A stretch of 64,000 nucleotides of DNA from Bacteroidetes bacterium MedPE-SWsnd-G2 (GTDB taxonomy: Bacteria; Bacteroidota; Bacteroidia; Flavobacteriales; Flavobacteriaceae). The stretch's first letter is position 1. The number at the start of each line of letters is the position of its first letter. The stretch covers positions 62,001-126,000 of the forward strand of contig MPDE01000004.1 of the NCBI GenBank assembly GCA_001874335.1, given 5' to 3'. A program made the translations under genes and the position numbers. The notes under the pieces are model-generated. The model was given only the letters and a program-made list of their open reading frames with translations. It was not told the DNA's origin and searched no databases. Shown here piece by piece: positions 16,617 through 39,933 of the stretch.

Positions 16617-17018
16617 ATGGTAAATCGCGTTGAAAAATTGAGTTTGCTATCCGAAATGATCGCATTCGCAAGAACAGATGAAAATATTAGAAATATAGAG
16701 TATAACTTTTTATTAGGTGTTGCCAAACAGCTTGGTATATCGCGTTCTGATTTCGATTATTTATTCCAACATCCAGTGACTTATGTGCATTTAAAATCAC
16801 ACAGTGAGCGTATAGTTCAATTTCATAGACTTGTTTTACTAATGAATTTGGACAGCAATAGTACTTCTAAAGAACTTGTGAAATTGCATAATTTCGGATT
16901 AAGAATGGGCTTAAGCCATGAATCTATAAATAGAGTTCTTGATTTAATGGAGAGCTTCCCAAATAAGGTTGTGCCAGCAGATTTTTTAATTGATATCTTT
17001 AAGGTACAGTACAACTAA
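16617..17018 (+). CDS. TerB-like helical protein next to uvrB (133 aa)
   Basis: A 133-residue all-helical cytoplasmic protein. The arrangement KLSLLSEMIAFARTDENI, EYNFLLGVAKQLGIS and DFDYLF, and the second half ERIVQFHRLVLLMNLDSN with LHNFGLRMGLS, resembles the TerB/DjlA-N tellurite-resistance-type helical domain, in which acidic residues at helix ends bind metal. The assignment is by pattern only and the biological role is unknown. Its stop codon overlaps the uvrB stop on the opposite strand (17015-17018), so the two genes are convergent with no gap. Confidence 0.75.
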   Translation: MVNRVEKLSLLSEMIAFARTDENIRNIEYNFLLGVAKQLGISRSDFDYLFQHPVTYVHLKSHSERIVQFHRLVLLMNLDSNSTSKELVKLHNFGLRMGLSHESINRVLDLMESFPNKVVPADFLIDIFKVQYN

Positions 17019-19022: not shown

Positions 19023-19052
19023 CAAATTTAACCTATTGTTTTACCTAACCAA
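19023..19052 (-). promoter_or_regulatory. uvrB promoter, predicted leaderless
   Basis: On the minus strand TTG (19050-19052), a 19-base spacer and TAAATTTG (19023-19030) match the Bacteroidota consensus. Only TAGT separates the box from the uvrB ATG, so transcription would begin at or next to the start codon. Its upstream half lies inside the last codons of the T9SS cargo gene at 19041-21365. Confidence 0.75.
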
Positions 19053-21365
19053 AGCAAAATGACCGCGGTAAATAATTTGGTCGTTACTATAAACAACAAA
19101 CCAATAATCATCTGAAGGTAACAAATTGCCATTTAATGTCCCGTTCCAACCAACATCGTTATATGATAAGTTGGTTATGAGTTTTCCGTACCTGTTAAAT
19201 ATTTTGACGGTTAATTCTGAATTAAACTCAGCATTCACTCCTTTTAGTTGCCATAACTCATTATAATTATCGCCATTTGGTGTAAAGAATTTGGGATACC
19301 CCACAATAGCAAACTCCATTGACGCAGTGTTGCAGTTAAATTCATCTTTAACATAAACGGTATGAAACCCTGAATCTAAATTGTAAAAATTTGGGTCTGA
19401 TTGATAAGAGCCATTTATGTCGTCAATGGCGTATTGAAACGGTCCGTTACCTAAAGTTTCAACCAATATGGAGTTTGGTGTATCTAAATATGTAATTCCA
19501 GATATAACTGGAGCATCTGCAGGTATTACAGTGATATTTCTTTGGGAGCTACATCCGTTAGGATCTGTAATGATAACCGTGTAAACTCCAGGTTCATTTA
19601 TATCGATAAATGAAGTATCTACTTCTGTATCTTGATTATTGAAAAGCCAATTGTAATAATAATTGTTGGGTAAATCATTGAGGACTCCTCCATATAATCT
19701 AATGGTATCTGGATATAAATTATTGCAATAAATGGTTGATGAATCACCACTGTTTTGCGGTGTGTACAAAACTTTTAAATCTACTTCATTTATTCCCAAA
19801 CAACTGCCATCTTCTTGAATCCTAACAAAAATAGTTTGTAGAAAAGGAGAGACGTTTAAGTAATTGTTGGGTAGTTGGTTTTCCTCAAAAATGGCATCAT
19901 TTTCTGTAAGGTAGTAATTAACTTCGGCTGTTTCCGGGATTTCAGCTTCAATACTTTCTTCAATAAGTTGAAGATTGAAAGTGACAAATCCATCGACGGT
20001 TTCATCGTCACAAATTTCTAATGCTGGAATGAAAATATTTGTATTTGAAGTCTCTAAACGCACTGATGCAGTACTTGCACATCCTTGATTATTTATTATC
20101 CGAGCATAAACCAATTGATTTGGAGTTGTATTGCCAAAATTGTTTGGATTTTCTAATGGGTTTGTATTATTAATTGCATCTGTTTCAGTAAGGAAAAAAT
20201 TGCCAACAATTAAGTTGCTGTCATTTATAGTAAGTTGATTTTCGGCATCATACAAATCATAAAATGACAGTCCATCATTATTGGAATCGCAATTGGAAAG
20301 ATTGGCATCTTGTACTAGAGGTGTTTCAGAATATTCGATAGCAATACTTCCGTAAGAAATACAATCGTTGTCTAATGTGATTTCAACTTCATAAAGCCCT
20401 GGTGATTCAACATTATAAATAGGAGATGTGACGTCTGGCAGAAGTACACCATCTTTCTTCCAAAGATAAGAGGTAGCCTGATTCTCGGTAGCATCTAACC
20501 ACAGATTTTCGCCTTCACATAACGCGTTATTTAATCCTAATAAACGGTCAGGTCCCATATCTGTAGTTAGTTCAAAACTCCCGGCTTCAAGAAAAACTGC
20601 CGAGTCATATCTGTAATTCTGTTCGTCAGCTATTACTAATTTCACATGATAGGTGTTATTAGGAATGACATTTGCAGTTGCGGTAAGAATGGCGGTTTGG
20701 CCATTAAAATTAATGGGCCAAGTGGTTGGATTATAGCTTCCAAAATAAGCTTCATTTTGGGCTGCACATCCATTGGGAATTTCGGGGTGAACTGTTGTTG
20801 CTTTTACCGGTGTATCTGTATTCGGAACCAAAGCAATGTTAAGGAATTCTTGTTCATTAACTGGCCTGATAAGAAATCCAAATAAATCTGAATAGTTGCA
20901 AGAATTAGGATTATTCGCTTGATATTCTTCTGAAGCGAAAATGTATCTGAAACTTACTTGTGATGCTACGGCAGTAAAATTAAATTCTAAAATAGTAGCA
21001 TTTAATGTGTTTGGTTCATTTAAAACTTCTTCTAAATCGGCGTCTCCTCCCCAATTAGGTGCATCATCATCGCTTAACGTTGAATTTGGTCCTGCAACAT
21101 TTTGCATACGTCCCGTGGTTAAAACGAGGCCTTCATCAAACGGAAAACCCGAGCCATTAGCATTGAAGTAACCATAACTTTCATCAGAGCCACCGAAGTC
21201 ACCTCCAACTACGTTTGTGACTTGAATATTTGAAATACAGTCGCTGTCAATTAATATGTCTTCAATTAATTGCTGGGGCGTATAGGTTTGAATGTCTGTT
21301 GTAATGTTTTGAGAAAAACCTAAAAGGCTAAAACATAAACATAAATACAAAAAACAATTTCTCAT
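19041..21365 (-). CDS. T9SS type B cargo, choice-of-anchor L head, 2 CDxDxDG modules (774 aa)
   Basis: An exported surface protein. A signal peptide (MRNCFLYLCLCFSLLGFSQ) is followed by a choice-of-anchor L domain (about 25-265; markers GLVLTTGRMQNVAGPNSTL, FRYIFASEEYQANNPNSC and HVKLVIADEQNYRYDSAVFLE), an Ig-like domain (about 270-345), two CDxDxDG modules (about 355-540), another Ig-like domain ending GVYTVIITDPNGC, a pre-CTD beta domain (SGFHTVYVKDEFNC) and the T9SS type B sorting domain (KFFTPNGDNYNELW to YRGHFALVR). It is the last and shortest of the three anchor-L proteins of the cluster. Probably displayed or released at the cell surface; the ligand is unknown. Confidence 0.92.
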   Translation of the reverse strand: MRNCFLYLCLCFSLLGFSQNITTDIQTYTPQQLIEDILIDSDCISNIQVTNVVGGDFGGSDESYGYFNANGSGFPFDEGLVLTTGRMQNVAGPNSTLSDDDAPNWGGDADLEEVLNEPNTLNATILEFNFTAVASQVSFRYIFASEEYQANNPNSCNYSDLFGFLIRPVNEQEFLNIALVPNTDTPVKATTVHPEIPNGCAAQNEAYFGSYNPTTWPINFNGQTAILTATANVIPNNTYHVKLVIADEQNYRYDSAVFLEAGSFELTTDMGPDRLLGLNNALCEGENLWLDATENQATSYLWKKDGVLLPDVTSPIYNVESPGLYEVEITLDNDCISYGSIAIEYSETPLVQDANLSNCDSNNDGLSFYDLYDAENQLTINDSNLIVGNFFLTETDAINNTNPLENPNNFGNTTPNQLVYARIINNQGCASTASVRLETSNTNIFIPALEICDDETVDGFVTFNLQLIEESIEAEIPETAEVNYYLTENDAIFEENQLPNNYLNVSPFLQTIFVRIQEDGSCLGINEVDLKVLYTPQNSGDSSTIYCNNLYPDTIRLYGGVLNDLPNNYYYNWLFNNQDTEVDTSFIDINEPGVYTVIITDPNGCSSQRNITVIPADAPVISGITYLDTPNSILVETLGNGPFQYAIDDINGSYQSDPNFYNLDSGFHTVYVKDEFNCNTASMEFAIVGYPKFFTPNGDNYNELWQLKGVNAEFNSELTVKIFNRYGKLITNLSYNDVGWNGTLNGNLLPSDDYWFVVYSNDQIIYRGHFALVR
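19730..20292 (-). repeat. Two copies of the about 95-aa CDxDxDG module
   Basis: Modules start at CDSNNDG and CDDETVDG. Each has the core pattern of the cluster: FxL after the acidic loop, a YxLTExDA-type segment, then VRI or ARI and a second Cys (GCAST, SCLGI). Confidence 0.85.
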
Positions 21366-21439: not shown

Positions 21440-24400
21440 TTATAACCTTAAAGAAAAATGGCCTCTAACTTCAAAATTAATATCTCCCTTTCGCACATTG
21501 GCTAAGAACCAATAATCGGCAGCAGGCATTTGATATCCATTATACTTGCCATCCCAACCTTGAGAGGTAGAGGTTAAAAAAGCTAATTGCTTACCATACC
21601 TATCAAAAATATAAATGTGAGTTCCTGGTAAGGTTTCTACACCGGTGATGTGCCAAGTATCAAAATGCCCATCGTTGTTTGGCGTCATGAATTTTGGAGC
21701 ATCAATAACCACAATCTCTTTTGAAACCTCATTGCAGCCGTTTAAATCAATGACCGTAATGGTGTGGTAACCTAATGAAACATTATAAAAGAAGTTGGAT
21801 TCTTGAGGGGCAAAATCATCTAATTGATACAAGTAATTTCCAATACCACTTACTTCAACAGTAATATTATTTGGGTCTGAAAAATCTATTGTTTCTGTGA
21901 ATTCGATTATTGCTTGTTCCGATTCGGTAACATTAAAAAATTGAGTAGACTCACAGCCATTAACGGTTGTGACAGATACATAGTAGGTTCCTATTTCGGT
22001 AATCTCAATGGTTGGAGATATTGCTCCTGTTGACCATTGGTAGGTGTCTTCGTCATTAAAAGTATATGCACTAACCGTAAGGGGTAAATCGTCCAAACAC
22101 ACAACTTGATCTGAAATATTTATCAAGGCAAGTGGATGAAGAGTTATTGAAAAATTTGAAATTGAAAAACAGCCACTCGCTAAGTTTTCTACTCGAGCAA
22201 ATATTTGATCTCCATCTGCAGCGCTGTAAAACTCATCTAAGACATTTATGTTGTTTGCTGCATCTGATTCCGAAACATAGTAAGAAACTTGAAATTGAGA
22301 GCTTATTTGGGATCCTAAAATTTGAGAATTTTGTTGGGTCAAATCAATCTCCAATGTTCCATCATAATCATCGTCACAAAACTCCAAGTTATCGGCAGTA
22401 TTGGCCGTAGGAACAGGGTTTACAATAATATCAAAAGGATAAACAATAAAACAATGCGTTGTTGTGTATTCTACTCTGGCATATAATGTTTCTATTTCAG
22501 ATGAAATTTGATGATTGGTATCCAATGAATTTTCTTCAGAATAAGCATCTAAAAATGTACTGTAATACGAGAAATCTATATTAATATCTGTGTCAGATAT
22601 CAAATTGTTTATTTGAGTTAAATCGTAATTATCAATATCATCTTCACAGGCAATAATGGATTCAAACGCGTTAATAGGCGGAGGTAAGTTTACAACTAAC
22701 TCTAATGGTAAAGACAAAAAACAATTGGTTATAGTATTGTTTACCTTGATGTAAATGGTTTGCGGATTAGAAATATTGGTATAAATTTCTGGGTCATTTA
22801 TGGCGTTAGTTTCATTTTCTAAATCTAACATCGATTCGTAGTAGGTGACTTGAATATCATTATTTCTAACATCCAAAATTTCGACTTCAATATTGGTCAA
22901 ATCAAAATATTGAAATCCATCATAATCGGTATCACAAGTAACCAATTGAGTGGCATTATTTACAACAGGTAATTGAATAACATTGAGTTCGAAACTGGTA
23001 ATGTATTTGCAAATATTACCAGTGTCAACTTTTACAAATATTTGTTGAGGATTTACCGTGTTGGTATGTGTTAATTCTAATTGGTTTGTCCCTGCCTCAG
23101 CGTCTTCAATAGTGGTGTAGTAGGTGATTTCGGAATTTTGATTTATACCTTCAGAAATTTCTAAAGTCTTTTCATTTAAATCAAAAGTCGCTACACCATC
23201 ATTAGAAATGTCATCACAAACAAACCAATCTGTAGGTTCGTTATATAGCGGGTAAACACCAGTTTGAATCGTAAATGAATCTAAAGTATAGCAATTTGGA
23301 TCCGTGAAATTTTGAACACGAACGTAAATAATTTGCGGATTACTTAAATTGTCATAATTATTGTTTTTATCGATGGCATTGATGTTGCCAACGGCATCCG
23401 TAAGAGATTCAAAATACAAGACTTCCTTCCCCGATTGTCCGTTTAAAATTTCCTCATCTTTGGTGTTGAACAAAAACTGACCTTCAGTGACAGCAATATC
23501 TGCACAATAGGTGTATTCTTCAATAGGTTGAATTTCCGGAATCGAATTAATGATGATGTCAAACTCTACAATAGAATAACATCCGGTAAGGTTACTATCA
23601 ATTCTGATATAGAACTGATTGGTATCCACTTCAAAAGCGGTTGGCGAATTAATAGGGTTTGAAAGTTGCTCAGCATTGTCTTCTGTTCTGAAATATGACA
23701 GTGTCAAATTCTCAGTGCTATCTAAAATTTCAGGCACCTTTGAAGTTAAATCTATAGTGAAGTTTGTCACTGAAGCGGGCTCACATATGAAAAATGGTTC
23801 TGGAGCGTTATAACTTGGCGCCGGTATAATATTAATGTCAAAAGGTTGTATATAACTGCACTCATTTGCGTTGTCACCAATTTTAATGTACAGTGTTAGT
23901 GGATTTGAAAAATTATCGAAATCACTATCTAAGGCATTGAAGCCGAACTCCGCCGATTCTAAAGTGTAGTAATAGTTAATTGAAAAATTAGGATCATCAA
24001 TTACCATAAAATCCTGAAGCCAGTCAAAGCTAATGTTAACAAATCCATTTTGATCATCATCGCAATAATCTATGGAGCTTGGCACATCAAATTCTGTTAC
24101 GGGATCCATTATCAAATCTATTTCTGCGGTCTCAACACAATCAGGACTCGTGATTGTTAAATAAAGTGTTTTTGGGTTTTCGGTAGAAACGTAGGGTTCG
24201 AAAATATCTAAGGCATTAGTTTCGTTTGTGCGATCTTCTTCGGTTTCGTAAAAATCAATTATTAAGTCAGGTACATCTGCCATAATAACAACACTAATCA
24301 GACTTAAATTGAATTCTTGAATGGTATCGTTGTCAATATCACATTCTGTGAAATCTCTAATTTCTGTACCAGTGAGAAGGAGGTTGGTATGAAGTTCTAT

Positions 24401-26275
24401 AGCCTCTGTGGTAAAACATCCCGTTTCATTATTCACTATTCTAATATGAACTATTTGTTCATTGCCAACTGTATTGGCAAAATTTGTATCATCAGAAATA
24501 GCGTTTTCACCAGAAGAGGCATCTCCTGCAGTAGGGTGGAAGGTGATGGTAACCTCATCAAGGTTTCCTGTGTAAACGTCTTCAATTATTGTAGTTAAAT
24601 CAAATTCTGCAAAACCGTCATAATCGTAGTCACAGGCATCTATATAAAATGGCCCTTCTTCTATGCCTGGAGCTCCAACAACATTAAAATCTAAATAGGT
24701 TGTGCTGATACAGCCTGTTTCTGGGTTTACAACTCTTATATAAAGTTGGTCATTTGGACTATTAACCACATAATTATCATCCATTGGATTTACTCCTGAA
24801 CCAGCATCTTCGGGCGTGGTATGATAAGTGACTTCAAAAGTTTCCTCACCTTGTGTAACAAACTCGTTATTATCACTTAATATCACTTCAATTTCATCAC
24901 CGTTTAATACAGCTTCACAATCTAAGGGCACAATGGGCGCATAGATAAAAGGCAACGGATTAACCACAAGATTGAACGAATTAAATAGAAGGCAACCCGT
25001 TACTGTGTCCTCTATTCTAACATGTATGGTTTGGTTGTTGAAAAGGTTTTCGATATTATTTGTTATCGCGTTATTGTTATTTTGGGCATCCCAACTTGAA
25101 AAATGATAGGATACTTCATAATTGTTTCCAGCTACAGAAGCTAATACTTCATCGGTCATTGTATCCAAATCAAATATTTCTTGACCATCGTTACTCACGT
25201 CATCACAAAGTTGGTAATCGGCTATTGGTTCTGGCGGTGCAGTAGAATTTAAATCGATATTTATGTCATCTTCGATGACGCAAAATCCCTCTCCTAAAGG
25301 GATTTCAATTTGAATTCGATAATTTCCTGAGGCATTAACGGTTAAGTCTGGTTGAGAGTGATCAGCGATTACCTCATCATTATAATACCAAGAGTAATTT
25401 GCTGCAGAATTAAAAATGTCTCCATTTAAATAAACAGTATCAGAACAGGTTATAATGTCTTCACCCAAATCTACATTTGGAGAAAAACTACTCCCTTCAA
25501 TAAATACTGCTGAATCGTAATTTCTATCCGTTTGATCTGCTATAATTAACTTAATGTGGTAAGAGACATTTGGTTGAATACTCGCAGATGCGGTTAATAC
25601 TTTAGTTCTCCCATTATAATTGGTGTCACCTAAATTGTAGCCTTCAAAATATTCTTCATTCTCACTTTCACAGAATCCGACTATTGCTTCGTGAATTGTA
25701 TTTGTATTTACCGGGATGTTTGTTCCTGGAATAATTGCAATATTACTATAAGGTTCTGAGCTAGCAGTTGGTTTAATCAGAAAGGCAAAACCATCGGAAT
25801 AATCACAGGGAAAATTGGCAAAATACTCTTCAGAGGCCAAAATGTAATTAAACTGTATTTCATTGGCGATGGAAATAAAATCAAATTCAATTGAAGTCGC
25901 ATTTAAAGTCCCTGATATATCCAGGGCAGATTCTAAATCGGGATCGGTTGCCCAAGAGTCGTCACCTTCATTTAAAATTTCTGTATTTACGGCATTTCCT
26001 CCGGAACTTGCGCTTCCAGTAGATAGTATTATGCCGTTGTCAAATGGAAAATCTGAATTCTCTTTATTAAAAAACGCATAACTGCCTAGACCAATTTCTG
26101 AACCATTGATTTGGCTCATTATATTAGAGATTTCTACGCAATCACTGCCTAAGGCGTTTTGTATTAGTTCTTCAACAGAATTGGCAGTATTGGTGCTAAT
26201 TTGTTGAGAAACAGCACTTATACTAAAGCATAGCAAAACAAGGCAATACAAATATTTACTTGTAAGTCTTAGCAT
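21440..26275 (-). CDS. Giant T9SS type B cargo, choice-of-anchor L head, 11 CDxDxDG modules (1611 aa)
   Basis: The start is placed at ATG 26275 (MLRLTSKYLYCLVLLCFSI), which begins the signal peptide; a TTG six codons upstream is less likely. Order: signal peptide; choice-of-anchor L domain (about 30-275; NGIILSTGSASSGGNAVNT, FNYILASEEYFANFPC, YHIKLIIADQTDRNYDSAV); Ig-like domain; eleven modules of 90-97 residues (about 350-1385); Ig-like domain ending GTYYVSVTTVNGC; pre-CTD domain; T9SS type B sorting domain (KFMTPNNDGHFDTWHITGV to EVRGHFSLRL). A Cys opens each module and a second Cys sits about 65-70 residues later, so intra-module disulfides are possible. It is a full-length paralogue of the upstream 1607-aa gene. 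Probable role: long surface fibre or adhesin. Confidence 0.92.
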   Translation of the reverse strand: MLRLTSKYLYCLVLLCFSISAVSQQISTNTANSVEELIQNALGSDCVEISNIMSQINGSEIGLGSYAFFNKENSDFPFDNGIILSTGSASSGGNAVNTEILNEGDDSWATDPDLESALDISGTLNATSIEFDFISIANEIQFNYILASEEYFANFPCDYSDGFAFLIKPTASSEPYSNIAIIPGTNIPVNTNTIHEAIVGFCESENEEYFEGYNLGDTNYNGRTKVLTASASIQPNVSYHIKLIIADQTDRNYDSAVFIEGSSFSPNVDLGEDIITCSDTVYLNGDIFNSAANYSWYYNDEVIADHSQPDLTVNASGNYRIQIEIPLGEGFCVIEDDINIDLNSTAPPEPIADYQLCDDVSNDGQEIFDLDTMTDEVLASVAGNNYEVSYHFSSWDAQNNNNAITNNIENLFNNQTIHVRIEDTVTGCLLFNSFNLVVNPLPFIYAPIVPLDCEAVLNGDEIEVILSDNNEFVTQGEETFEVTYHTTPEDAGSGVNPMDDNYVVNSPNDQLYIRVVNPETGCISTTYLDFNVVGAPGIEEGPFYIDACDYDYDGFAEFDLTTIIEDVYTGNLDEVTITFHPTAGDASSGENAISDDTNFANTVGNEQIVHIRIVNNETGCFTTEAIELHTNLLLTGTEIRDFTECDIDNDTIQEFNLSLISVVIMADVPDLIIDFYETEEDRTNETNALDIFEPYVSTENPKTLYLTITSPDCVETAEIDLIMDPVTEFDVPSSIDYCDDDQNGFVNISFDWLQDFMVIDDPNFSINYYYTLESAEFGFNALDSDFDNFSNPLTLYIKIGDNANECSYIQPFDINIIPAPSYNAPEPFFICEPASVTNFTIDLTSKVPEILDSTENLTLSYFRTEDNAEQLSNPINSPTAFEVDTNQFYIRIDSNLTGCYSIVEFDIIINSIPEIQPIEEYTYCADIAVTEGQFLFNTKDEEILNGQSGKEVLYFESLTDAVGNINAIDKNNNYDNLSNPQIIYVRVQNFTDPNCYTLDSFTIQTGVYPLYNEPTDWFVCDDISNDGVATFDLNEKTLEISEGINQNSEITYYTTIEDAEAGTNQLELTHTNTVNPQQIFVKVDTGNICKYITSFELNVIQLPVVNNATQLVTCDTDYDGFQYFDLTNIEVEILDVRNNDIQVTYYESMLDLENETNAINDPEIYTNISNPQTIYIKVNNTITNCFLSLPLELVVNLPPPINAFESIIACEDDIDNYDLTQINNLISDTDINIDFSYYSTFLDAYSEENSLDTNHQISSEIETLYARVEYTTTHCFIVYPFDIIVNPVPTANTADNLEFCDDDYDGTLEIDLTQQNSQILGSQISSQFQVSYYVSESDAANNINVLDEFYSAADGDQIFARVENLASGCFSISNFSITLHPLALINISDQVVCLDDLPLTVSAYTFNDEDTYQWSTGAISPTIEITEIGTYYVSVTTVNGCESTQFFNVTESEQAIIEFTETIDFSDPNNITVEVSGIGNYLYQLDDFAPQESNFFYNVSLGYHTITVIDLNGCNEVSKEIVVIDAPKFMTPNNDGHFDTWHITGVETLPGTHIYIFDRYGKQLAFLTSTSQGWDGKYNGYQMPAADYWFLANVRKGDINFEVRGHFSLRL
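22105..25208 (-). repeat. Array of 11 CDxDxDG modules in the 1611-aa cargo
   Basis: Module heads in order include CDDVSNDG, CEAVLNGD, CDYDYDG, CDIDND, CDDDQNG, CEPASVTN, CADIAVTEG, CDDISNDG, CDTDYDG, CEDDIDN and CDDDYDG. Modules 2, 6 and 7 have lost most acidic loop residues. Between modules the linker usually ends in a Pro-rich strand (VNPLP, INSIP). Confidence 0.88.
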
Positions 26276-26426
26276 GATGGGATCAAATAACAATTTTTTT
26301 AACAGAGCTACCTCTGCTTTTTTTGGAAGTATAAGTTATGAAAAAATTGCCTTACATGTACTAATCTCCGATAATATGCATAATCTGCTGATTAATTGAT
26401 TGTTAAGTTTGAAATTAGAATTGTAT

Positions 26427-29400
26427 TTAACGTCTAAGCGCAAAATGACCTCTTACCTGAAAGTCAATTCCGTCCTTTTTTACGTTTGCAACATACCAAT
26501 AATCTGTAGCTGGCATGTCTTTTCCGTTGTATTTACCATTCCATCCTTCAGATGTTGATGTTAAATAATGGATTTGTTTTCCAAAACGGTCAAATATAAA
26601 AATTTCGGTACCTGATAATTGCTCTACTCCGGTGATGTGCCATGTGTCAAAATAACTATCTCCATTTGGAGTCATAAATTTAGGTGCATCAATAATTACA
26701 ACTTCTTTGGTGATTTCAGAACAGCCGTTTAAATCAATTACGGTTATTATATGCGGGCCTAAGGCTACATTTTCAAATACGTTTGATTCTTGAGCTGGTT
26801 GATCATCTAATTGGTATAGATAATTTCCAATTCCGCTTATGGTAACTGTTATGTTATTAGGGTCTGAGAAATCTACAGTTTCTGTAATTTCAATACTTGC
26901 TTGTTCAGATTCACTAACATTAAATACCGATGTAGTTTCACAACCATTTGGTGTTGTAACAGTGACCCAGTAGGTGCCAATTTCTGTAACTTCAATTTCA
27001 GGAGTAGTCATACCATTTGACCACAGATAAGTATAACTAGGTGTATTGTTATTAGAGCTAACCAATAGCGGTAAGTCTTCTAAACAAATAACCTGATCTT
27101 CACTTATTGGTATTGGGAGTTGATATACCTCTAGATTAAAACTTGCCGTTATATAGCATCCCGAAGAATTATTTGTAATTCGAGCGTATAAGGTTTCTCC
27201 TGAAAATCCGACATAATCCAACGGTAATGCATTGTCAAATAAGTCGGCATCTGTAGAAGATGTGTGATAACTTACATTAAATATGTTTGGGTTTTGATTT
27301 CCTAATAATGTCGAATTGTGACTGCTTAAATCAAATTCTGCAATACCATCAAAGTTATCATCACAAATGGTCAAGTTCTCTGTTGAATTCACGAATGGAA
27401 GTGGATTTACTACCAGCTGAAATGGATAAATCGTATAACAATGCGTCGTGCTAAATTCTACTCGAACCACTAAAGGTGTTGCTGCCGAATTGTAATTAAA
27501 AAGAGTATTTATAGGATTGCTTTGCGCTTCTGCATCGGCAATACTGTTGTAATATGAAAATAACACGTTATATGAATTCTCTACTAAAGTTGAATTAATC
27601 GTGTTTAAATCGAACAGTTGATTTTCAGTTTCACAAATTTCAAAAGTTCCAAAATCATTTATTACTGGAGGTAAATTCACCTGAAGCGGGATAGGTTGAA
27701 TAACAGAACAATTTGAAATTGTATTCGTAACCTTTATAAAAACGGTTTCCTGTAATTCGGTGTTTTGATAGTTTGTAGGATTTGAAATCGGATTCAATTC
27801 TAATTCGGCTTCATTATAATTTTGAAAATAACTGATAACTAAATTATCATTTCTTACATCTAAAACATCTGATTCTGCTTGAGTAATATCAAAAATTACG
27901 ATGCCATCGGCATTATCATCACAGACTATCATTGGTTGAGGTTGATTTACCTCTGGAACCATAATTACGTTAAGTTCGAAACTCGTTACAGAAGCACAAA
28001 TAGTACCGTTATCAATACGTGCATAAATTTGTTGCGGATTAACTGTATTTTCAAAAGATTCAGAAATTGGATTTACTCCCAATTCTGCAGATGCTAATGT
28101 TGTATGAAATGTAATTGTTAGGTTGTCATTAATCCCTTGAGAAATCTCTGTTGATTTTATTGATAAATCAAAAACTTCACTTCCGTCATTTGAAATATCA
28201 TCACAAACAAACCAATCGGTAGCATGATTAAATAATGGGTTGGTCCCAACTTCTAAGGTAAAACTTGATGTTCCGAAACAATCTGCATCTGTAACATTTT
28301 CTACTCTAACATAAATGGTTTGAGGATTGCTTATGTTTTGATAGGCTTGCGTTTTATCAATAGCATTTGTTTTATTGTTGGCGTCGGTTAAACTGGTGTA
28401 ATAAGACGTTACCTTTCCTGTTTGACCATTTAAAATTTCGTTGTCTTTAGTATTAAAAAAGAAATCGGCAAAGTTATCACTACTGTCTTCACAAATTGTA
28501 TAATTACTGATATCCAAAAATACAGGTAAGGTGTTTACAATGACATCAAATGCTTCAATAGAGTGGCAGCCCGTTGCATTGTTTTCAATTCTTGCAAATA
28601 AACGTTCTGTGCCGGCGTCATAAGACTCCATATTAATAGGATTAGCCGCATTGTCTGCATTGGCATAACTGGTATGAAAGCTAAAGCTAAATCCGCTTGG
28701 ATTTACCATTAGTTCAGGAATTCGTGTTGTTAAATCAAGTGTAGATAGACCATCCTGATCATCATCACAAATAATTATATCTGAAAGCGGTAAGGTGTCT
28801 GGGGCTGGTAAAACATTAATTTCAAATTCACTTACATCGGCACAACCAGTTAGGTTATATCTGATTCTTGTGTATATGGTTTGTGGGTTAGAAATATTGG
28901 TATAAAAGTTAGGTAATGCATTTGAATTCGATTCGGCATCGGCCATTGAAGCAAAATAGGTCACACTAAAATCTGACTGACCAAAAGTCACTTGTTCATC
29001 AAAGAATGCTAGTTCGATACTCGTGAATCCATCTTGATCTGTATCACAATAATCTATGGTTCCAGCATCATCAAATAAAATTATAGGATTTATAGTTAAT
29101 ATAATTTCAGAATATTCTTCGCAAGTTGGACTTGTAATCGTAATATAAATGGTTTGTGGGTTACTCGTTGTTTCAAAAGGAGTGGCCTTATCTAATGCAT
29201 TTATGTTATTAGTTTGGTCGTCTTCAGTTTCAAAAAATGTAACTGTAACATCAGGTAAACCGTTAACGATAACCTGTTCCATATTTATTAAATCGAATGG
29301 CTCTACAAGATCATTATCTTCATCACAAATTGAGAAATCAATGATATTTGTGGCAGTTAGCAGCAGATTGGTATGAATCTCTATAGGCATTGTACTTGCG

Positions 29401-31250
29401 CAACCTGTGTTGTTATCCATTACTCTAATGAATACTATTTGTTGGTTGATTACAATATTATTGTAAACCGTTTCATCAAGAATTGGATTTGCGCCACTTA
29501 ATGCATCTTCGGGGGTTTCGTGAAAAGTAGCCGTAACATCTGTTAATGGGCCAATAACATCAGAAATAATTGAGGTAAGATCGAAATCTGCAAACCCATC
29601 ATGGTCAGCATCACAAGCGTCAATATAATGTGGCCCAGCAATAAGTTGGGGATTATCTAAAACTACCACTCCTAGTACTGTTGTACTTGCGCAGCCAGTT
29701 GAATTATTAACCACTCTAACAAAAAGTAATTCGTTTTGTAAGCTGTTGCTGTATGGTGATGCAATTGGGTTATTACCGGTATCAGCATCTAATTGATTGA
29801 GATGGTAACTTACTTGTAAATTGTTGTCACCACCAGTGATTTCATCATCTTTTTGGGTTAAATCTATTTCAGTCAATCCGTCTGCTATGCCATCATCACA
29901 AACTTCTAAAAGAGTAGGCGTAGTGATTAGAGGTAATTCATTTACAACTAAATTAAAGCTGTTATAGGCTAAACAACCAGAATCAATATCTTCAATTCTA
30001 ACAAAAATTAATTGAGGGTTAGAGGTGTTTTGAATTGGTGTTGTAATTGCGTTTACATTGTTTGATGCGTCAGTATTAGAATGATGATAGCTAACGATGT
30101 AATTTGCTGAAGGAACGGTGGTTTCTACTTCAGAGGTTTTTATACTTAGGTCGAACGTTTCAATTTCATCTCCAGAAAGATCATCACAAATTTCAAAATC
30201 TGAAATAGGCGTTGATGTCTGGGTAGAACTCAAAGTCACTTGAACACTGTCTTCGATACTACAAATATCTCCAGCTAAAGGAATTTCTGCTTGAAGCGTA
30301 TATAAACCTGTTGTTGTAACCGTTAATTGAGGGGTCACTTCTCCAGGAATAACATTGCCATCTAATAACCAAGTATAAGTAGCAAGCGGGTTTTGAATAT
30401 CTCCATTAAGACTATAAGATTCTGAACAGGTTGTAACATCATTGCCTAAATCTATTTCGGCAGTAAAACTATTCCCTTCAATAAATACAGCAGAATCATA
30501 ATTTTCATCAGTTTGATCTGCAATAATTAATTTTATGTGGTATTGAATATTAGGAATAATGATTGCAGAAGCGGTTAAAACAGCTGTTCGACCATTAAAA
30601 TTTGTGTCTCCAAGATTATAACCTTCAAAAAACTGTTCGTTTTCAGGAGGACAAAAACCTACTATTTCATCGTGAACAGTATTTGTGTTTACGGGTATAT
30701 TTGTACCTGGAACCACTGCTATATTTTGGTATGGATCATTGGTGCCAGCTTGTTTTATTAAAAAGGCAAATCCGTCTGAATAGTTACACGGAAAATCTCC
30801 AAAATATTCTTCTGAAGCTAAAATGTAATTAAATTGAATCTGATTTGTAATTGATGTAAAATCAAACTCAATTGATGTAGCGTTTAATGTTCCTGTGATA
30901 CCTAAAGCTGTTTCAAGATCACTATCTGTCCCCCAACTAGAAGTCCCCTCGTTTAAAATGGTGTTATTAACGCCATTAGCGCCAGAGTTTGCATTACCTG
31001 TTGAAAGCATGATACCATGTTCAAACGGAAAATCTGAACCAGCAGCCTCAAAATAACCATAACTGGAAAAACCATTTGTTTGGCCATTTACTAAAGACTG
31101 AATGTTTTCAGTTTCCACACAACCTTCAATAAAATTGTTTTCAATTAATTGCTGTATAGAAACGGTATTATCTATGGTGATTTGTTGCGCATAGCAACCT
31201 ATTGCTGTTAAACTAACAGATATAATAAAGGCAATAAATGTCTTATTCAT
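26427..31250 (-). CDS. Giant T9SS type B cargo, choice-of-anchor L head, 11 CDxDxDG modules (1607 aa)
   Basis: Layout as in the downstream paralogue: signal peptide (MNKTFIAFIISVSLTAIGCYAQ), choice-of-anchor L domain (about 30-270; GIMLSTGNANSGANGVNNT, FNYILASEEYFGDFPC, YHIKLIIADQTDENYDSAV), Ig-like domain, eleven modules (about 337-1385), Ig-like domain ending GTYWVTVTTPNGC, pre-CTD domain and T9SS type B sorting domain (KFMTPNGDSYFDTWHITGV to VRGHFALRR). Module n of this protein resembles module n of the neighbour more than its own flanking modules, so the genes arose by whole-gene duplication. It has its own promoter (31318-31348). Surface display by T9SS is well supported; the binding partner is unknown. 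Confidence 0.93.
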   Translation of the reverse strand: MNKTFIAFIISVSLTAIGCYAQQITIDNTVSIQQLIENNFIEGCVETENIQSLVNGQTNGFSSYGYFEAAGSDFPFEHGIMLSTGNANSGANGVNNTILNEGTSSWGTDSDLETALGITGTLNATSIEFDFTSITNQIQFNYILASEEYFGDFPCNYSDGFAFLIKQAGTNDPYQNIAVVPGTNIPVNTNTVHDEIVGFCPPENEQFFEGYNLGDTNFNGRTAVLTASAIIIPNIQYHIKLIIADQTDENYDSAVFIEGNSFTAEIDLGNDVTTCSESYSLNGDIQNPLATYTWLLDGNVIPGEVTPQLTVTTTGLYTLQAEIPLAGDICSIEDSVQVTLSSTQTSTPISDFEICDDLSGDEIETFDLSIKTSEVETTVPSANYIVSYHHSNTDASNNVNAITTPIQNTSNPQLIFVRIEDIDSGCLAYNSFNLVVNELPLITTPTLLEVCDDGIADGLTEIDLTQKDDEITGGDNNLQVSYHLNQLDADTGNNPIASPYSNSLQNELLFVRVVNNSTGCASTTVLGVVVLDNPQLIAGPHYIDACDADHDGFADFDLTSIISDVIGPLTDVTATFHETPEDALSGANPILDETVYNNIVINQQIVFIRVMDNNTGCASTMPIEIHTNLLLTATNIIDFSICDEDNDLVEPFDLINMEQVIVNGLPDVTVTFFETEDDQTNNINALDKATPFETTSNPQTIYITITSPTCEEYSEIILTINPIILFDDAGTIDYCDTDQDGFTSIELAFFDEQVTFGQSDFSVTYFASMADAESNSNALPNFYTNISNPQTIYTRIRYNLTGCADVSEFEINVLPAPDTLPLSDIIICDDDQDGLSTLDLTTRIPELMVNPSGFSFSFHTSYANADNAANPINMESYDAGTERLFARIENNATGCHSIEAFDVIVNTLPVFLDISNYTICEDSSDNFADFFFNTKDNEILNGQTGKVTSYYTSLTDANNKTNAIDKTQAYQNISNPQTIYVRVENVTDADCFGTSSFTLEVGTNPLFNHATDWFVCDDISNDGSEVFDLSIKSTEISQGINDNLTITFHTTLASAELGVNPISESFENTVNPQQIYARIDNGTICASVTSFELNVIMVPEVNQPQPMIVCDDNADGIVIFDITQAESDVLDVRNDNLVISYFQNYNEAELELNPISNPTNYQNTELQETVFIKVTNTISNCSVIQPIPLQVNLPPVINDFGTFEICETENQLFDLNTINSTLVENSYNVLFSYYNSIADAEAQSNPINTLFNYNSAATPLVVRVEFSTTHCYTIYPFQLVVNPLPFVNSTENLTICDDNFDGIAEFDLSSHNSTLLGNQNPNIFNVSYHTSSTDADLFDNALPLDYVGFSGETLYARITNNSSGCYITASFNLEVYQLPIPISEDQVICLEDLPLLVSSNNNTPSYTYLWSNGMTTPEIEVTEIGTYWVTVTTPNGCETTSVFNVSESEQASIEITETVDFSDPNNITVTISGIGNYLYQLDDQPAQESNVFENVALGPHIITVIDLNGCSEITKEVVIIDAPKFMTPNGDSYFDTWHITGVEQLSGTEIFIFDRFGKQIHYLTSTSEGWNGKYNGKDMPATDYWYVANVKKDGIDFQVRGHFALRR
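27088..30188 (-). repeat. Array of 11 CDxDxDG modules in the 1607-aa cargo
   Basis: Heads in order: CDDLSGDE, CDDGIADG, CDADHDG, CDEDND, CDTDQDG, CDDDQDG, CEDSSDN, CDDISNDG, CDDNADG, CETENQ, CDDNFDG. The shared core is FDLT, V(S/T)(Y/F)(H/Y), DAxxxxNPI, NPQTIYxR(I/V) and TGC. Module 10 lacks the acidic loop in both paralogues. Confidence 0.88.
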
Positions 31251-31380: not shown

Positions 31381-33198
31381 CTACCTATTTAAATAGACCC
31401 AACCTGTAAGAGAATTGAAATTGGGATCGTTGAGGTGAAGGACATAAAAATAGGTGCCAACAGGTACTAATTTTCCGTTTCTATTCATACCTCTATTTAC
31501 CAATCCGTCCCATTTTAGATTGTTGTTGCCTTTGAAAATTAGATCACCATAGCGGTTGTAAATAAGTAATTCATGATGTTCGAAAATATCATAAAGACCT
31601 TGAATGTTGAACCAATCGTTTTTACCATCACCATTAGGAGAAAACCCTTGTGGGATATAAGGCGGGCAATTTTCAACTTGAACAGTAAGACTGTAAGGTT
31701 GGTAACAAGTATCTAAAGGAAATTTAATATATATGGTTTGCGGGTTTTGGTCATTTGTAAATTGCTCAGGAATGGATATAGGATTTATACCTTGTTCTAA
31801 GTCTGTAATAGAAGCGTAAAAAGACAGGTTTGATATATCAAGGTTGGTTTCTTCTTCAAATAAAAGTGGAAGATTGAAAACAGCTGAGTTAAACCCTTCA
31901 TCACATGCAGTTGAAATTCCTAATGCAATTATTTCAGGAATCTCGAGTAAAACAAGTTGGGCATTATCCCAGTTATTCGTTTCATTAATTTCTGTTACCA
32001 TTCCAATGCCAGATCCGTTATCATCTACAACTATTGAAAGTTGAAAATTTTCAGGAATACCTATTGGTATTTCTAAAGTAGTAACATAAGAGTCTTGTTC
32101 ATTAATATCTAGTGCAGAAGCAGTTTGGCTTGTACCAATTAATGTACCATCGGCATAAAAGGCAATAGGAACATTGCTCGGCAATATTTCTGTACTGTTG
32201 GTATTATAAATGGTGTATTCTACATCAATTGAACGGTCGCCACAATTTATTATATCGCTATCTATAGTTACTGTTGCATCCGGCAATTGACTGTTTAAAA
32301 CAGTAATTATATTGTTTATCATTACAAAATCCTGACCGGAAGTAAGTTGAATTATAGCCGAAGTATCTCCAATGTCAATGTTGTTTTGGATATCATAGAC
32401 GTCAATATCCATATTATAAAGATTGGTTTCACCTGTAAAACTGTTTGTGCCGTTAAAGGCATTGTTAACAGGGTTTAGCGGAGGGTTTCCGATTGCGTTT
32501 CCGTTGATGGTTAGTTGTTCGTTCACTGCTAGTGCAGAGTCACCTTCCCAGGCTACAAACCCAATTTTTGCGCCTTCGTTGTCTAAAACATTCAAATTGT
32601 CTAAAGTAACTTCCAGTTGTTCAGGAACACTTTGAAGTCCGTCGTAAACATTTAATTGATTCAGTGGTAAATTTAAATCCTCATAAATGATAGTAATCGC
32701 CCAACCTCCAAAATTGGTACCGGAAGGACAATAAGGGGGAATAACACTTGTTAAGTCTAATTCACTTAATGTGTAATTTCCAACGCCTTCATTAATAACT
32801 AATTCAGTGACATCTGCAAAGGCTGCAAAAAACTGTCTACTCGCATCCAAATTAATATTGAATGTGCGTTCAGCCATTATTTCAATGCCGTTTAAATTGA
32901 CATTAAAATCTCCTGCTCCAGATCCTGCCCAATATAAATAGGCTGCCGTAATAGTTTGGCTTGAATTTAAATTTAAAAGTGCACTTGAGCTGGTATATAT
33001 ATCACAAGTACCGTTAAGTCCGTTTTCGGTTAAATTTAAAGTATTTCCAATAGCAGTATAATCAAACCTACCATTAAATTGCTGATAAAGAGATATATCC
33101 TGAGCATTAAGATTTGAACTCAAGAGCATTATAAAAAAACAGATAAGAAATTTAAAATTTCTATACACTACTAAGGTGATTTTGGGTGCTGTCTTCAA
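31381..33198 (-). CDS. T9SS type B cargo with DUF3344/CARDB-like regions and 1 module (605 aa)
   Basis: An exported protein with a different head. The N-terminal part (about 35-290) has ITAAYLYWAGSGAGDFNV and WAITIIYEDLNLPLNQLNVYD, resembling DUF3344-type beta domains. A CARDB-like domain follows (about 310-420, ending VTEINETNNWDNAQ), then one copy of the cluster module (CDEGFNSAVFNL to PLDTC), and a classical type B sorting domain (GFSPNGDGKNDWFNIQGL to GWVYLNR). No ATG precedes the signal peptide: the start is TTG at 33198 or GTG at 33168. The GTG gives MYRNFKFLICFFIMLLSSN, which is a cleaner signal peptide. It follows the 813-aa cargo gene by 9 bases and is probably cotranscribed with it. 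Confidence 0.88.
   Translation of the reverse strand: MKTAPKITLVVYRNFKFLICFFIMLLSSNLNAQDISLYQQFNGRFDYTAIGNTLNLTENGLNGTCDIYTSSSALLNLNSSQTITAAYLYWAGSGAGDFNVNLNGIEIMAERTFNINLDASRQFFAAFADVTELVINEGVGNYTLSELDLTSVIPPYCPSGTNFGGWAITIIYEDLNLPLNQLNVYDGLQSVPEQLEVTLDNLNVLDNEGAKIGFVAWEGDSALAVNEQLTINGNAIGNPPLNPVNNAFNGTNSFTGETNLYNMDIDVYDIQNNIDIGDTSAIIQLTSGQDFVMINNIITVLNSQLPDATVTIDSDIINCGDRSIDVEYTIYNTNSTEILPSNVPIAFYADGTLIGTSQTASALDINEQDSYVTTLEIPIGIPENFQLSIVVDDNGSGIGMVTEINETNNWDNAQLVLLEIPEIIALGISTACDEGFNSAVFNLPLLFEEETNLDISNLSFYASITDLEQGINPISIPEQFTNDQNPQTIYIKFPLDTCYQPYSLTVQVENCPPYIPQGFSPNGDGKNDWFNIQGLYDIFEHHELLIYNRYGDLIFKGNNNLKWDGLVNRGMNRNGKLVPVGTYFYVLHLNDPNFNSLTGWVYLNR
31670..31908 (-). repeat. Single CDxDxDG-type module in the 605-aa cargo
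   Basis: Head CDEGFN, then AVFNLP, LSFYASITDLEQGINPIS, NPQTIYIKF and DTC. The acidic loop is degenerate. This links the fourth protein to the family even though its head and sorting tail differ. Confidence 0.75.
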
Positions 33199-33207
33199 AG
33201 TTAGTAA

Positions 33208-35649
33208 TTATCTTTTTAATGTAAAATGACTATTAAAAACCCGACCATCTTGCAAAATCACTTGAAACCAATAGTCATCTCCAGGTAATGGATTTCCGTT
33301 GTAATTGCCGTCCCAACTTCTGTTGTTTCCGCTTAAAGTGGTAATTAATTTACCATACCTATTAAAAATGAGAACCTTAGTTTGTGGTTGAAAATCATCT
33401 GAAACACCATTTATACTCCAAGTGTCATTGTGACTATCGTTATTGGGTGTAAAGTACTTAGGGAAACCAATTACCGAAACTTGTTTTTCAAATAGACCGC
33501 AATTGTTTTTGTCTCTTACAAAAACCGTATAGAAGCCCGAAATGAGGTTGGTAAATTCATTACTGTCTTGATACGGACCGTTACTGTTGTTTAAAGAAAA
33601 TTCATAATCACCTTCACCTGAAACCAATATAGTTATAGAGTTGTTTGCAGAAGCATCTGAAATTTCAATGGCGTCAAAAGTTGCAATATTTGAAGGAAGT
33701 ACTTGAATGGTTCTCGATTTAAAACAGCCGTTTGTGTTTATAACGTTTACCGTATATGTCCCTGGTTCATTAACCATTATTTCAGATGAATCTTCACCAG
33801 TAGACCATTCAAAATAGTAATTGTTAGGGATGTCATTTAAAACACCTGCATCAAGGGTAATTGGAGTAGGGTATTCATTTAAGCAATACAAAAATTCATC
33901 TTCAATGTCCAGCTGTGGTAAGGCAAAAACCTCCAATGAGATTTCACTGATACCATAACACGCATTTTCATTTTCAATCCGTGCATAAACAACTTGATTG
34001 TAGGGAATGGTGTTTGAAAATTGAGATGTAATTGGAGAGGCTTCAATAAGCGCATCATTATAAAACTGGTAGTAAGTAACTGTTGAAGTTGCTGGAATGT
34101 CATCAGAAATTAAACTTTCTAATTCGCCTAAGTTAAAGGTCTGAATTCCATCTTCAATGCCGTCATCATCACATTTAGTAAGTGATAAATCCTGAACTTG
34201 GGTCGCACTGATGTTTAAATTTAACAGACCTAAATTGAAGCAACTCGTGACTGAATTAGTTAGCCTAACGTAAAGCGTTTGCGGATTAAAAAAGTTGTCA
34301 AAAATAGTGCTTTCAAGTGCATTGCTATTTTGAAGTGCTTGTTCTGCGGAAAAGAAATATGTGATTTCTATATCTGAATTGTCATTAGAAAATTCGGATT
34401 CTATTTCTGAGAGATTGAAAGTTGTAAATCCTTCAGGTATTCCATCTTCGTCACATTGAGTCAGCGTTAACACTTGTGATTCTGGAGCTACCAATACTTC
34501 TAAGGTTAATGGTAATATTACTTTACAGTCTAAATTTCCAACCTCGGCAATCCTAACAAAAACAACCTGATTAAATGCCGTGGTGTTGGTGTATACATCT
34601 GGAAGTGGTGAAGTACTATTCTCAGCGCTTTCTTCGGTTAAATGATAACTAATATTGTAAAGTGTTGCATCTTGGTTTTGAAGAATTTCATTTTGATATT
34701 CTAATAGATTAAATGATGTAATTCCATTTGGCACAGAATCACCTTCATAATCATCGCATTCTTGAAACGGTTCATCAATGGAAATGTCAGGCCCAAAATT
34801 TGCAGTAAGTTGGAATTCTGAAATTTCAAAACATTCGGTATTCTCGTTAGTGACTCTCACAAAAATGATTTGAGGATTTGCAATGTTAGTATATGGGGTG
34901 CTCCAATCAATTGGATTAGTATTAAGGTTTGCATCGCTTTCGGTTTCGTGATAACTAAATGTAACATTTACTTGATCTCCCAAAACAATTGAATTGTTAA
35001 CCGATAAATCGAAAGTGGTAAGTCCGTCATTGTAGGGCGCAACACTATCACAATTTTCAATGTTAGTCGCGTTTGAAACATCTTGGTTGGCTGGAGGCTC
35101 CGCAAATTGCGCTGAACCGGTCCATTCCATGCTAAAAGGGCTGTTGCCAATGGGTCTGTCAATGACTAAAAAGTAGCGTTCTCCAGCGAGGACATCTAGG
35201 GATTCCACAAAACTATTTCCGTTGGCTCCAGGTCCTTCAGAAGCATCAGTTTCTGTTGATGACATTCCGGTTAAATTATTTGCTTGATTTATACTTGCCG
35301 GATTTGTGGTAGAGCACCTTACAGCTTGTCCTAAATTATTGCAGTCTATTACAGGTCCAAATAAGAAAAAATCATAATCTTCGGTTATTGCAGCACTATT
35401 TGGAGTTAAGGTAAATGCCAAAGTACCATCGGTAATGGGATCTAATCTAAGCCAAATAGAGTTGTTTTCTTGACTACCACAGTCATTACTACCAGTAAGT
35501 TCTTGTACACCCACACCTTCAACATCTAGGCTGAGGTTGGAGTTGCCACAAATAACAATAGCATTAATACAATCGGATGGTTGTTGTGCTTGTGCAAGGC
35601 ATGTTATATTTAGAAATGCTACAAGTAGAATTATAATTTTATAGTTCAA
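33208..35649 (-). CDS. T9SS type B cargo with PPC-like head and 4 modules (813 aa)
   Basis: The signal peptide MNYKIIILLVAFLNITCLAQ starts at TTG 35649; there is no in-frame ATG before it. The head (about 22-190) is a PPC/jelly-roll-like beta domain seen in many T9SS proteins (SDCINAIVICGNSNLSLDVE, SIWLRLDPITDGTLAFTL, GERYFLVIDRPIGNSPFSM). Four modules follow (about 200-585; heads CDSVAPYNDG, CDDYEGDSVPNG, CDEDGIPEG, CDDDGIEDG), then an Ig-like domain ending GTYTVNVINTNGC, a pre-CTD domain and the type B sorting domain (KYFTPNNDSHNDTWSINGV to FNSHFTLKR). The C-terminal half is very similar to that of the upstream 1134-aa protein. It starts 7 bases after that gene's stop. Confidence 0.9.
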   Translation of the reverse strand: MNYKIIILLVAFLNITCLAQAQQPSDCINAIVICGNSNLSLDVEGVGVQELTGSNDCGSQENNSIWLRLDPITDGTLAFTLTPNSAAITEDYDFFLFGPVIDCNNLGQAVRCSTTNPASINQANNLTGMSSTETDASEGPGANGNSFVESLDVLAGERYFLVIDRPIGNSPFSMEWTGSAQFAEPPANQDVSNATNIENCDSVAPYNDGLTTFDLSVNNSIVLGDQVNVTFSYHETESDANLNTNPIDWSTPYTNIANPQIIFVRVTNENTECFEISEFQLTANFGPDISIDEPFQECDDYEGDSVPNGITSFNLLEYQNEILQNQDATLYNISYHLTEESAENSTSPLPDVYTNTTAFNQVVFVRIAEVGNLDCKVILPLTLEVLVAPESQVLTLTQCDEDGIPEGFTTFNLSEIESEFSNDNSDIEITYFFSAEQALQNSNALESTIFDNFFNPQTLYVRLTNSVTSCFNLGLLNLNISATQVQDLSLTKCDDDGIEDGIQTFNLGELESLISDDIPATSTVTYYQFYNDALIEASPITSQFSNTIPYNQVVYARIENENACYGISEISLEVFALPQLDIEDEFLYCLNEYPTPITLDAGVLNDIPNNYYFEWSTGEDSSEIMVNEPGTYTVNVINTNGCFKSRTIQVLPSNIATFDAIEISDASANNSITILVSGEGDYEFSLNNSNGPYQDSNEFTNLISGFYTVFVRDKNNCGLFEKQVSVIGFPKYFTPNNDSHNDTWSINGVSDDFQPQTKVLIFNRYGKLITTLSGNNRSWDGNYNGNPLPGDDYWFQVILQDGRVFNSHFTLKR
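33888..35052 (-). repeat. Four CDxDxDG modules in the 813-aa cargo
   Basis: Modules 1 and 2 have longer acidic loops (CDSVAPYNDG, CDDYEGDSVPNG). Modules 3 and 4 (CDEDGIPEG, CDDDGIEDG) correspond to modules 3 and 4 of the next protein upstream. Confidence 0.85.
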
Positions 35650-39061: not shown

Positions 39062-39088
39062 AAATGATAGCACAGGCTACCAAATATA

Positions 39089-39913: not shown

Positions 39914-39933
39914 AATGGTTGGGTAATGAAATG

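Follow-up and report, generated by a model that had tools for sequence, protein, structure and literature searches.

The window, a 64,000-nucleotide stretch of a contig from Bacteroidetes bacterium MedPE-SWsnd-G2 (Flavobacteriaceae), contains six consecutive genes encoding proteins with a type IX secretion system (T9SS) type B sorting domain (positions 19041-39073), all on one strand and separated by gaps of 7-151 bases. The six are built from the same module, in 11, 11, 4, 4, 2 and 1 copies, and form an operon-like cluster without a linked shuttle gene. The two 11-module genes, here A and B, are tandem neighbours on the minus strand, and the space between them holds no open frame of 100 amino acids or more. 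The features of the cluster and its flanks are:

17015..19018 (-): gene that we take, from its sequence, to be uvrB; conserved downstream flank
19041..21365 (-): p774, a short sibling with an anchor-L domain, 2 modules and a type B sorting domain
21440..26275 (-): gene A, 1611 aa from ATG (1617 aa from an upstream TTG)
21446..21706 (-): T9SS type B sorting domain of A (TIGR04131, 8e-30)
22124..25231 (-): array of A, 11 modules by the module profile
22124..22960 (-): triplet of modules 9, 10 and 11 (m9-m10-m11) of A, the same triplet as in B
25484..26164 (-): choice-of-anchor L domain of A (NF038133, 1.9e-44)
26427..31250 (-): gene B, 1607 aa
26430..26693 (-): T9SS type B sorting domain of B (TIGR04131, 2.1e-30)
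27111..30212 (-): array of B, 11 modules by the module profile
27111..27947 (-): triplet m9-m10-m11 of B, repeated in longer homologues
30465..31145 (-): choice-of-anchor L domain of B (NF038133, 1.6e-41)
31381..33198 (-): p605, 1 module and a type B sorting domain
33208..35649 (-): p813, 4 modules and a type B sorting domain
35657..39073 (-): p1138, 4 modules and a type B sorting domain
39089..40830 (-): ABC transporter permease and ATPase; conserved upstream flank

The product of gene B comprises, in order, an N-terminal hydrophobic stretch, an anchor-L domain, an Ig-like domain, 11 modules, a C-terminal segment and the sorting domain, and A has the same architecture. The coordinates and protein lengths given for the pair in an earlier note on this DNA agree with the open reading frames; the '1.6-kDa' of its title should read about 1.6 thousand residues, or roughly 175 kDa (an estimate at 110 Da per residue). 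Both proteins exceed the curated cut-offs for their end domains, with 151.7 (A) and 142.2 (B) bits against 27 for NF038133, and 102.8 and 104.7 bits against 35 for TIGR04131. They resemble other choice-of-anchor L proteins in passing this cut-off; however, the NF038133 model spans the N-terminal domain alone and is silent on the array. A literature search found no paper on the choice-of-anchor L domain. The modules are about 90-97 aa long and have two cysteines apiece (across 123 homologues, a mean of 2.00 at nine positions, 2.02 at m7 and 2.06 at m6). Part of the interest of this module family is that no Pfam or NCBIfam model matches the array of A or B at E <= 0.1. The Pfam SprB repeat (PF13573, gathering score 28) reaches 15.9 bits in B, over 14 residues outside the array, and has no match in A at E <= 0.1. 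Promoter and terminator scans did no better than shuffles (78 versus 83.7 and 10 versus 9.6).

The synteny comparison suggested in the earlier note found the locus to be conserved. The 120 fetched loci with a family member include at least 85 that have a same-strand uvrB homologue downstream of it; an ABC permease and an ATPase lie upstream in at least 71 and at least 66, respectively. Homologues of p813, p1138 and p605 are found upstream in at least 65, 57 and 51 loci (those of p813 and p1138 being distinguished by best hit alone), and a p774 homologue is found downstream in at least 43. This conservation argues that the order seen in the window, ABC-p1138-p813-p605-B-A-p774-uvrB, was inherited, and one member of the pair, by its divergence A, is an extra tandem copy; most of the 120 loci have one family gene. 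Module counts in the neighbours are also mostly fixed, with two in 75 of 91 rows for p774, one in 92 of 103 for p605 and four in 58 of 72 for p813, and split for p1138 (four in 94 of 177 rows, two in 51); these are modal counts, as the rows are contaminated by duplicate A/B-family open reading frames from overlapping loci, which probably make up most rows with 9-11 modules. A fixed count is therefore the local norm for proteins built from this module, not something special to A and B.

Pairing of modules by position and age of the array

Over their full length, A and B align with 51.2% identity (823/1607) and 3 gap positions. All 11 modules are reciprocal best matches by position. Identity averages 44.9% between modules at the same position, against 29.5% between other positions of the two proteins, 28.7% within A and 30.4% within B, which bears out the earlier claim that equivalent modules are closer than neighbouring ones. 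The motifs cited for this claim (YIDACD, ITSPxC, FNTKDxEILNGQ, WFVCDDISNDG and LDVRN) do occur at equivalent places in both proteins, and m10 lacks the acidic DG loop in both; in m2 and m6 the acidic loop is present in B and missing in A. In an IQ-TREE phylogeny of all 22 modules, each of the 11 positions forms a cherry (UFBoot 65-100, the weakest being m6 with 65 and m11 with 82) and no clustering by protein is seen, so that the test proposed in the note came out as it had predicted.

The array is widespread in the family Flavobacteriaceae, with many marine bacteria among its carriers. A strong homologue of B (E <= 1e-150) was found in 132 of 397 same-family genomes, its own included, and in 87 of 237 genera; paralogues are undercounted in this search, which used B as query, because two candidates were scored per genome. 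GTDB records name Winogradskyella, Psychroserpens, Mangrovimonas, Olleya, Bizionia, Lacinutrix and Algibacter, all of them Flavobacteriaceae, among the genera with homologues. In an order-level sample, 10 of 395 genomes have a match at E <= 1e-100: the genome itself, eight others from its family and, from a different family, G026, where the match is weak (31%, in a 1327-aa frame). The fetched loci yielded 136 distinct homologues with at least 660 BLAST bits, 132 of them full-length; homologues below 660 bits to both A and B are excluded from the counts, and at least L126, L106 and L086 contain other long array proteins below this limit.

Among the 132 distinct full-length homologues from the G genomes, 123 are 1602-1657 aa long and 123 have exactly 11 modules by profile, two sets that are not identical, since one 1399-aa protein scores 11 and one protein of standard length scores 10. 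In a tree of 1353 modules from 123 homologues, the same 11 positions appear as 11 near-complete clades, one per position (Jaccard 0.91-1.00, supports 0.38-0.96). The 11-module array is thus much older than the A/B pair; the earlier note's order of events, assembly of the array before duplication of the whole gene, is supported. One homologue (L145:6827-11026, 1399 aa) has all 11 modules; its alignment with B ends at residue 1386, ahead of the sorting domain, and the protein could be either broken or a form that is released.

Do the eleven positions then have eleven roles? Conservation is uneven along the array: m7 is the most conserved module, with 54% mean identity and 7 position-specific columns, and m10 the least, with 38% and no such column. 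Together with length changes that fall only within m9-m11 (see below), this points to some position-specific constraint. The proposal that each module position has its own role is unsupported as stated: positional pairing is explained by descent without any such roles, and assigning one to each of the eleven would go beyond what the pairing shows.

Age of the A/B duplication

The earlier note further implied a recent whole-gene duplication, confined to the MedPE-SWsnd-G2 genome. The tandem position of A and B in a locus that mostly holds one family gene would fit such an event, and in a 25-row whole-protein mixture tree the two are sisters (SH-aLRT 82). However, single copies in other genera share up to 62% identity with B, against only 51% between B and A. 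A FastTree phylogeny of 136 proteins does put both into a single small clade; a 17-module protein of G009, however, comes between them: it groups with A, and B adjoins that pair. With the stretch from the N-terminus to m8, FastTree (222 rows) separates the pair, A joining G350 (0.97) and B joining G297/G084 (0.94). In a 25-row mixture tree of the same stretch, A and B are apart in the free tree; the tree with A and B together has a slightly higher likelihood and is not rejected (AU p 0.64). Nor is any part of the two genes notably alike: no 50-column stretch lies more than 5 points above the identity of A and B to 12 orthologues, so there is no sign of gene conversion between them. Finally, genomes of one related genus commonly have 2-4 family genes, which makes an older duplication plausible. 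Judged from these comparisons, the duplication need not be recent, and an event restricted to this genome seems to us possible but somewhat doubtful. Whatever its date, A evolves faster than B, with a branch about twice as long in the whole-protein tree (1.06 versus 0.59) and in the N-terminus-to-m8 tree (1.27 versus 0.52).

Length changes within m9-m11

Pooling the G genomes with a named GTDB set gave 210 distinct full-length proteins that could be scored. The great majority (179) have 11 modules at 1600-1699 aa. Seven others of this length score 10, with m3 uncalled in all seven and slot 2 read as m5 in four; being of standard length, they should hold 11 slots. A tandem paralogue type represented by L168:8940-13841, L283:12926-17770, L235:14051-18910 and similar genes carries a divergent module 3, which escapes the profile; some of them also have module 2 read as m5. 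Two proteins have 11 modules but are short (1300-1499 aa), and three, forming one clade, have 9 modules that read 1-9, without m10-m11. Longer arrays have 14 (n=14), 17 (n=4) or 20 modules (n=1), and none of the 210 full-length proteins has 12, 13, 15, 16, 18 or 19.

We typed the longer full-length arrays with 11 position profiles (5 in the G genomes and 15 in the GTDB set, one protein being common to both). All 19 consist of m1-m8 followed by whole m9-m10-m11 triplets, and two further arrays, ended by the end of a contig or stretch, show the same reading as far as they can be seen. The number of m1-m8 modules is constant across the sample. As gains take the form of m9-m11 triplets and the loss concerns m10-m11, length change is confined to the C-terminal part of the array, the part expected to be cell-proximal; the 9-module clade, which lacks two modules, indicates that losses do not follow the triplet rule. 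The statement in the earlier note that no modules were gained or lost later is therefore correct for the A/B pair and does not extend to the family, which has changed within m9-m11.

In one genus, all 68 genomes have matches, at 123 places, with frames of 1609-1657 aa (95 places), 1888-1907 aa (14) and 2167-2194 aa (6), the remaining 8 places being cut or partial; these figures are frame lengths, not module counts, and the sample overlaps the others. An uncultured Psychroserpens has three family genes in tandem, with 20, 14 and 17 modules, adjoining one another (L261:1297-21318).

The added triplets do not seem to go back to one event. A single origin was rejected (AU p 0.001), as was a single clade of all triplets from expanded arrays (AU p 0.004), when 40 triplets were compared, 16 of them from 7 expanded genes and 24 single; the groups had been chosen after viewing the tree of the same 40, and exchange between tandem copies would weaken a tree test of this kind. 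The named Winogradskyella and Psychroserpens arrays belong to one group, and G403 and G136 fall outside it. In G136, a recent repeat spans m10 into the next m10 and breaks within m10, a pattern that fits what unequal crossover would leave. Exchange between tandem copies is suggested by the grouping of terminal triplets from several expanded genes with the single triplets of 11-module genes. Across nine longer arrays, m9 is about 28-53% identical to its next copy, versus about 38-81% for the m10 copies, so that the added triplets are of mixed history.

A predicted surface stalk and its three-module steps

The predicted structure of m8-m11 (pLDDT 92.2, pTM 0.68) is Ig-like. With this model as query, Foldseek found 317 PDB chains at E <= 0.001, and the best 50 of the 317 are mostly Ig or cadherin rods; fragments of grappling hook protein A (GhpA), from the Bacteroidota member Aureispira sp. 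CCB-QB1, make up the first four rows and 8 of the first 24. In VIA-align, eight GhpA entries have Z scores of 8.3-10.3 and titin I65-I70 has 9.0. Since the best GhpA score is only about one unit above that of titin, the match shows an Ig-like fold and not a shared function. A search of PDB sequences with the m8-m11 profile found no relative at E <= 1, GhpA included. On this model we take m8-m11 as an Ig rod, and GhpA as a parallel rather than a demonstrated relative. GhpA and A/B are both rods of Ig-like modules, but they align at only 11-17% identity, in flexible multi-domain alignments. GhpA is presumably the protein behind the heptameric hooks of a predatory bacterium treated in a review; for A and B, hook assembly would be conjectural. 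GhpA is also the longer protein, with entries extending to residue 5009. A passage of that review describes the hooks as T9SS-secreted (PMC11205867). Titin, Robo, NCAM and other Ig rods share the general tandem Ig-like design with A and B but come from different organisms and consist of different modules; the fold alone is common to them.

For the anchor-L domain plus Ig-like domain, a PDB sequence search returned only 3 weak matches, on the Ig part. VIA-align matches of the corresponding model likewise fall mainly on residues 245-325, the Ig part, and residues 176-187 are poorly predicted. With p1138, the PDB sequence search gave two meaningless matches only.

In F. johnsoniae, according to excerpts of one account, proteins with type B sorting domains are delivered by PorP/SprF-like shuttles either to the gliding machinery or to fixed sites; three such proteins have no shuttle gene linked to their own and all use Fjoh_1677, which is unlinked (PMC12618676). 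PorP-like proteins may retain type B cargo at the surface (PMC9143113). The type B substrates and putative adhesins of the F. johnsoniae account (SprB, Fjoh_4750, Fjoh_1123 and others; PMC12618676) have the type B C-terminal sorting domain in common with A and B. In those excerpts their secretion or targeting is tested by fusions, whereas for A and B we infer export; a fixed 11-module array with triplet steps does not figure in the excerpted description of the F. johnsoniae cargo (PMC12618676).

We consider it probable that A and B are T9SS type B proteins that form stalks on the cell surface; the anchor-L domain would be the head, m1-m8 a distal rod of fixed length, and m9-m11 a proximal spacer that can be adjusted. 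The pair would represent an old surface protein of the Flavobacteriaceae, here in two tandem copies, exported by the T9SS through the type B C-terminal signal, presumably by this route in the present organism too, and most likely standing as a thin stalk on the outer membrane. If the sorting domain is held at the membrane, m9-m11 would be proximal to the cell and the anchor-L domain would form the tip; the anchor-L and Ig-like domains would lie at the far end, followed by the m1-m8 rod, with the m9-m10-m11 triplet as the presumed cell-proximal spacer. Whole triplets added on the proximal side (giving 14, 17 or 20 modules), putatively by crossover between tandem copies, would then move the head outward and leave the rod unchanged. 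In MedPE-SWsnd-G2 both copies keep the basic 11, and A has drifted faster. By analogy to SprB-type proteins, A and B may function as adhesins.

Why should a stalk grow by three modules at a time? It is conceivable, and we put it forward only tentatively, that the family obeys an 8 + 3n rule, in which a fixed distal eight-module rod is carried by a proximal stalk that grows by three-module turns; quantised lengths would arise repeatedly, and tandem paralogues would hold heads at stepped heights, as the adjoining 20-, 14- and 17-module genes of the uncultured Psychroserpens might then do. A three-module helical repeat would give the 8 + 3n pattern the standing of a structural rule: with about a third of a turn per module, only +3 would keep head and rod face in register. 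Whole multiples of three are added in all 19 full-length longer arrays, and positions three apart are slightly more alike (30.05% versus 28.89%, permutation p 0.0097; p 0.0045, 0.0008 and 0.0053 in three further measures of period 3), with no significant likeness at periods 2, 4 and 5 in either permutation analysis. The m11 modules, moreover, are more m8-like when internal (35.2%, 21 arrays) than in 11-module arrays (31.5%, n=179; p 0.001 for this comparison, ignoring kinship) or at the end of longer arrays (30.5%, n=19), and an internal m11 is followed by m9, as m8 is. The period-3 excess and the m8-like internal m11 would fit growth by phase-matched splicing, the effects being small and kinship ignored. 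The excess amounts, however, to about 1 percentage point with four periods tried, and the losses in the 9-module clade run against the rule, so that we regard a helical repeat as an unlikely explanation.

It seems to us equally improbable that the array is merely frozen, its constancy passive and its modules without roles, after early assembly and a divergence that ended unequal recombination, with gains reusing one early recombination geometry at any place that offered two similar triplets or tandem copies: modules about 30% alike at the protein level (about 29% within a protein) are unlikely to recombine, so constant number may be simple inheritance, the neighbouring array proteins are mostly constant in count, and the break within m10 in G136 and the grouping of terminal with single triplets are what crossover between m10 copies and tandem exchange would be expected to produce, yet the triplets share one register although their single origin is rejected, and conservation differs strongly between m7, with its position-specific columns, and m10.

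In surface proteins made of repeats, the number of repeats often varies freely. The A/B family has eleven modules that stay individually recognisable across many genera, and all longer forms found have whole triplets added at one end. If the stalk reading is right, the family would offer a ready-made series in which to study what the length of a stalk and the order of its modules contribute to T9SS surface proteins.

The contig of the window has no PorP/SprF gene, and four occur elsewhere in the genome. Three of these directly follow a type B gene; the fourth (G000:C17:167363-168250), a PorP/SprF-like gene, does not, and no type B gene was found on its own contig. It is a candidate for a shuttle shared by the cluster in the window. 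Also outside the window, contig C15 ends within a frame with an anchor-L domain and modules (G000:C15:226265-228886), and contig C14 starts within a frame with a type B sorting domain (G000:C14:2-370); both frames are contig-end fragments of proteins of this kind.
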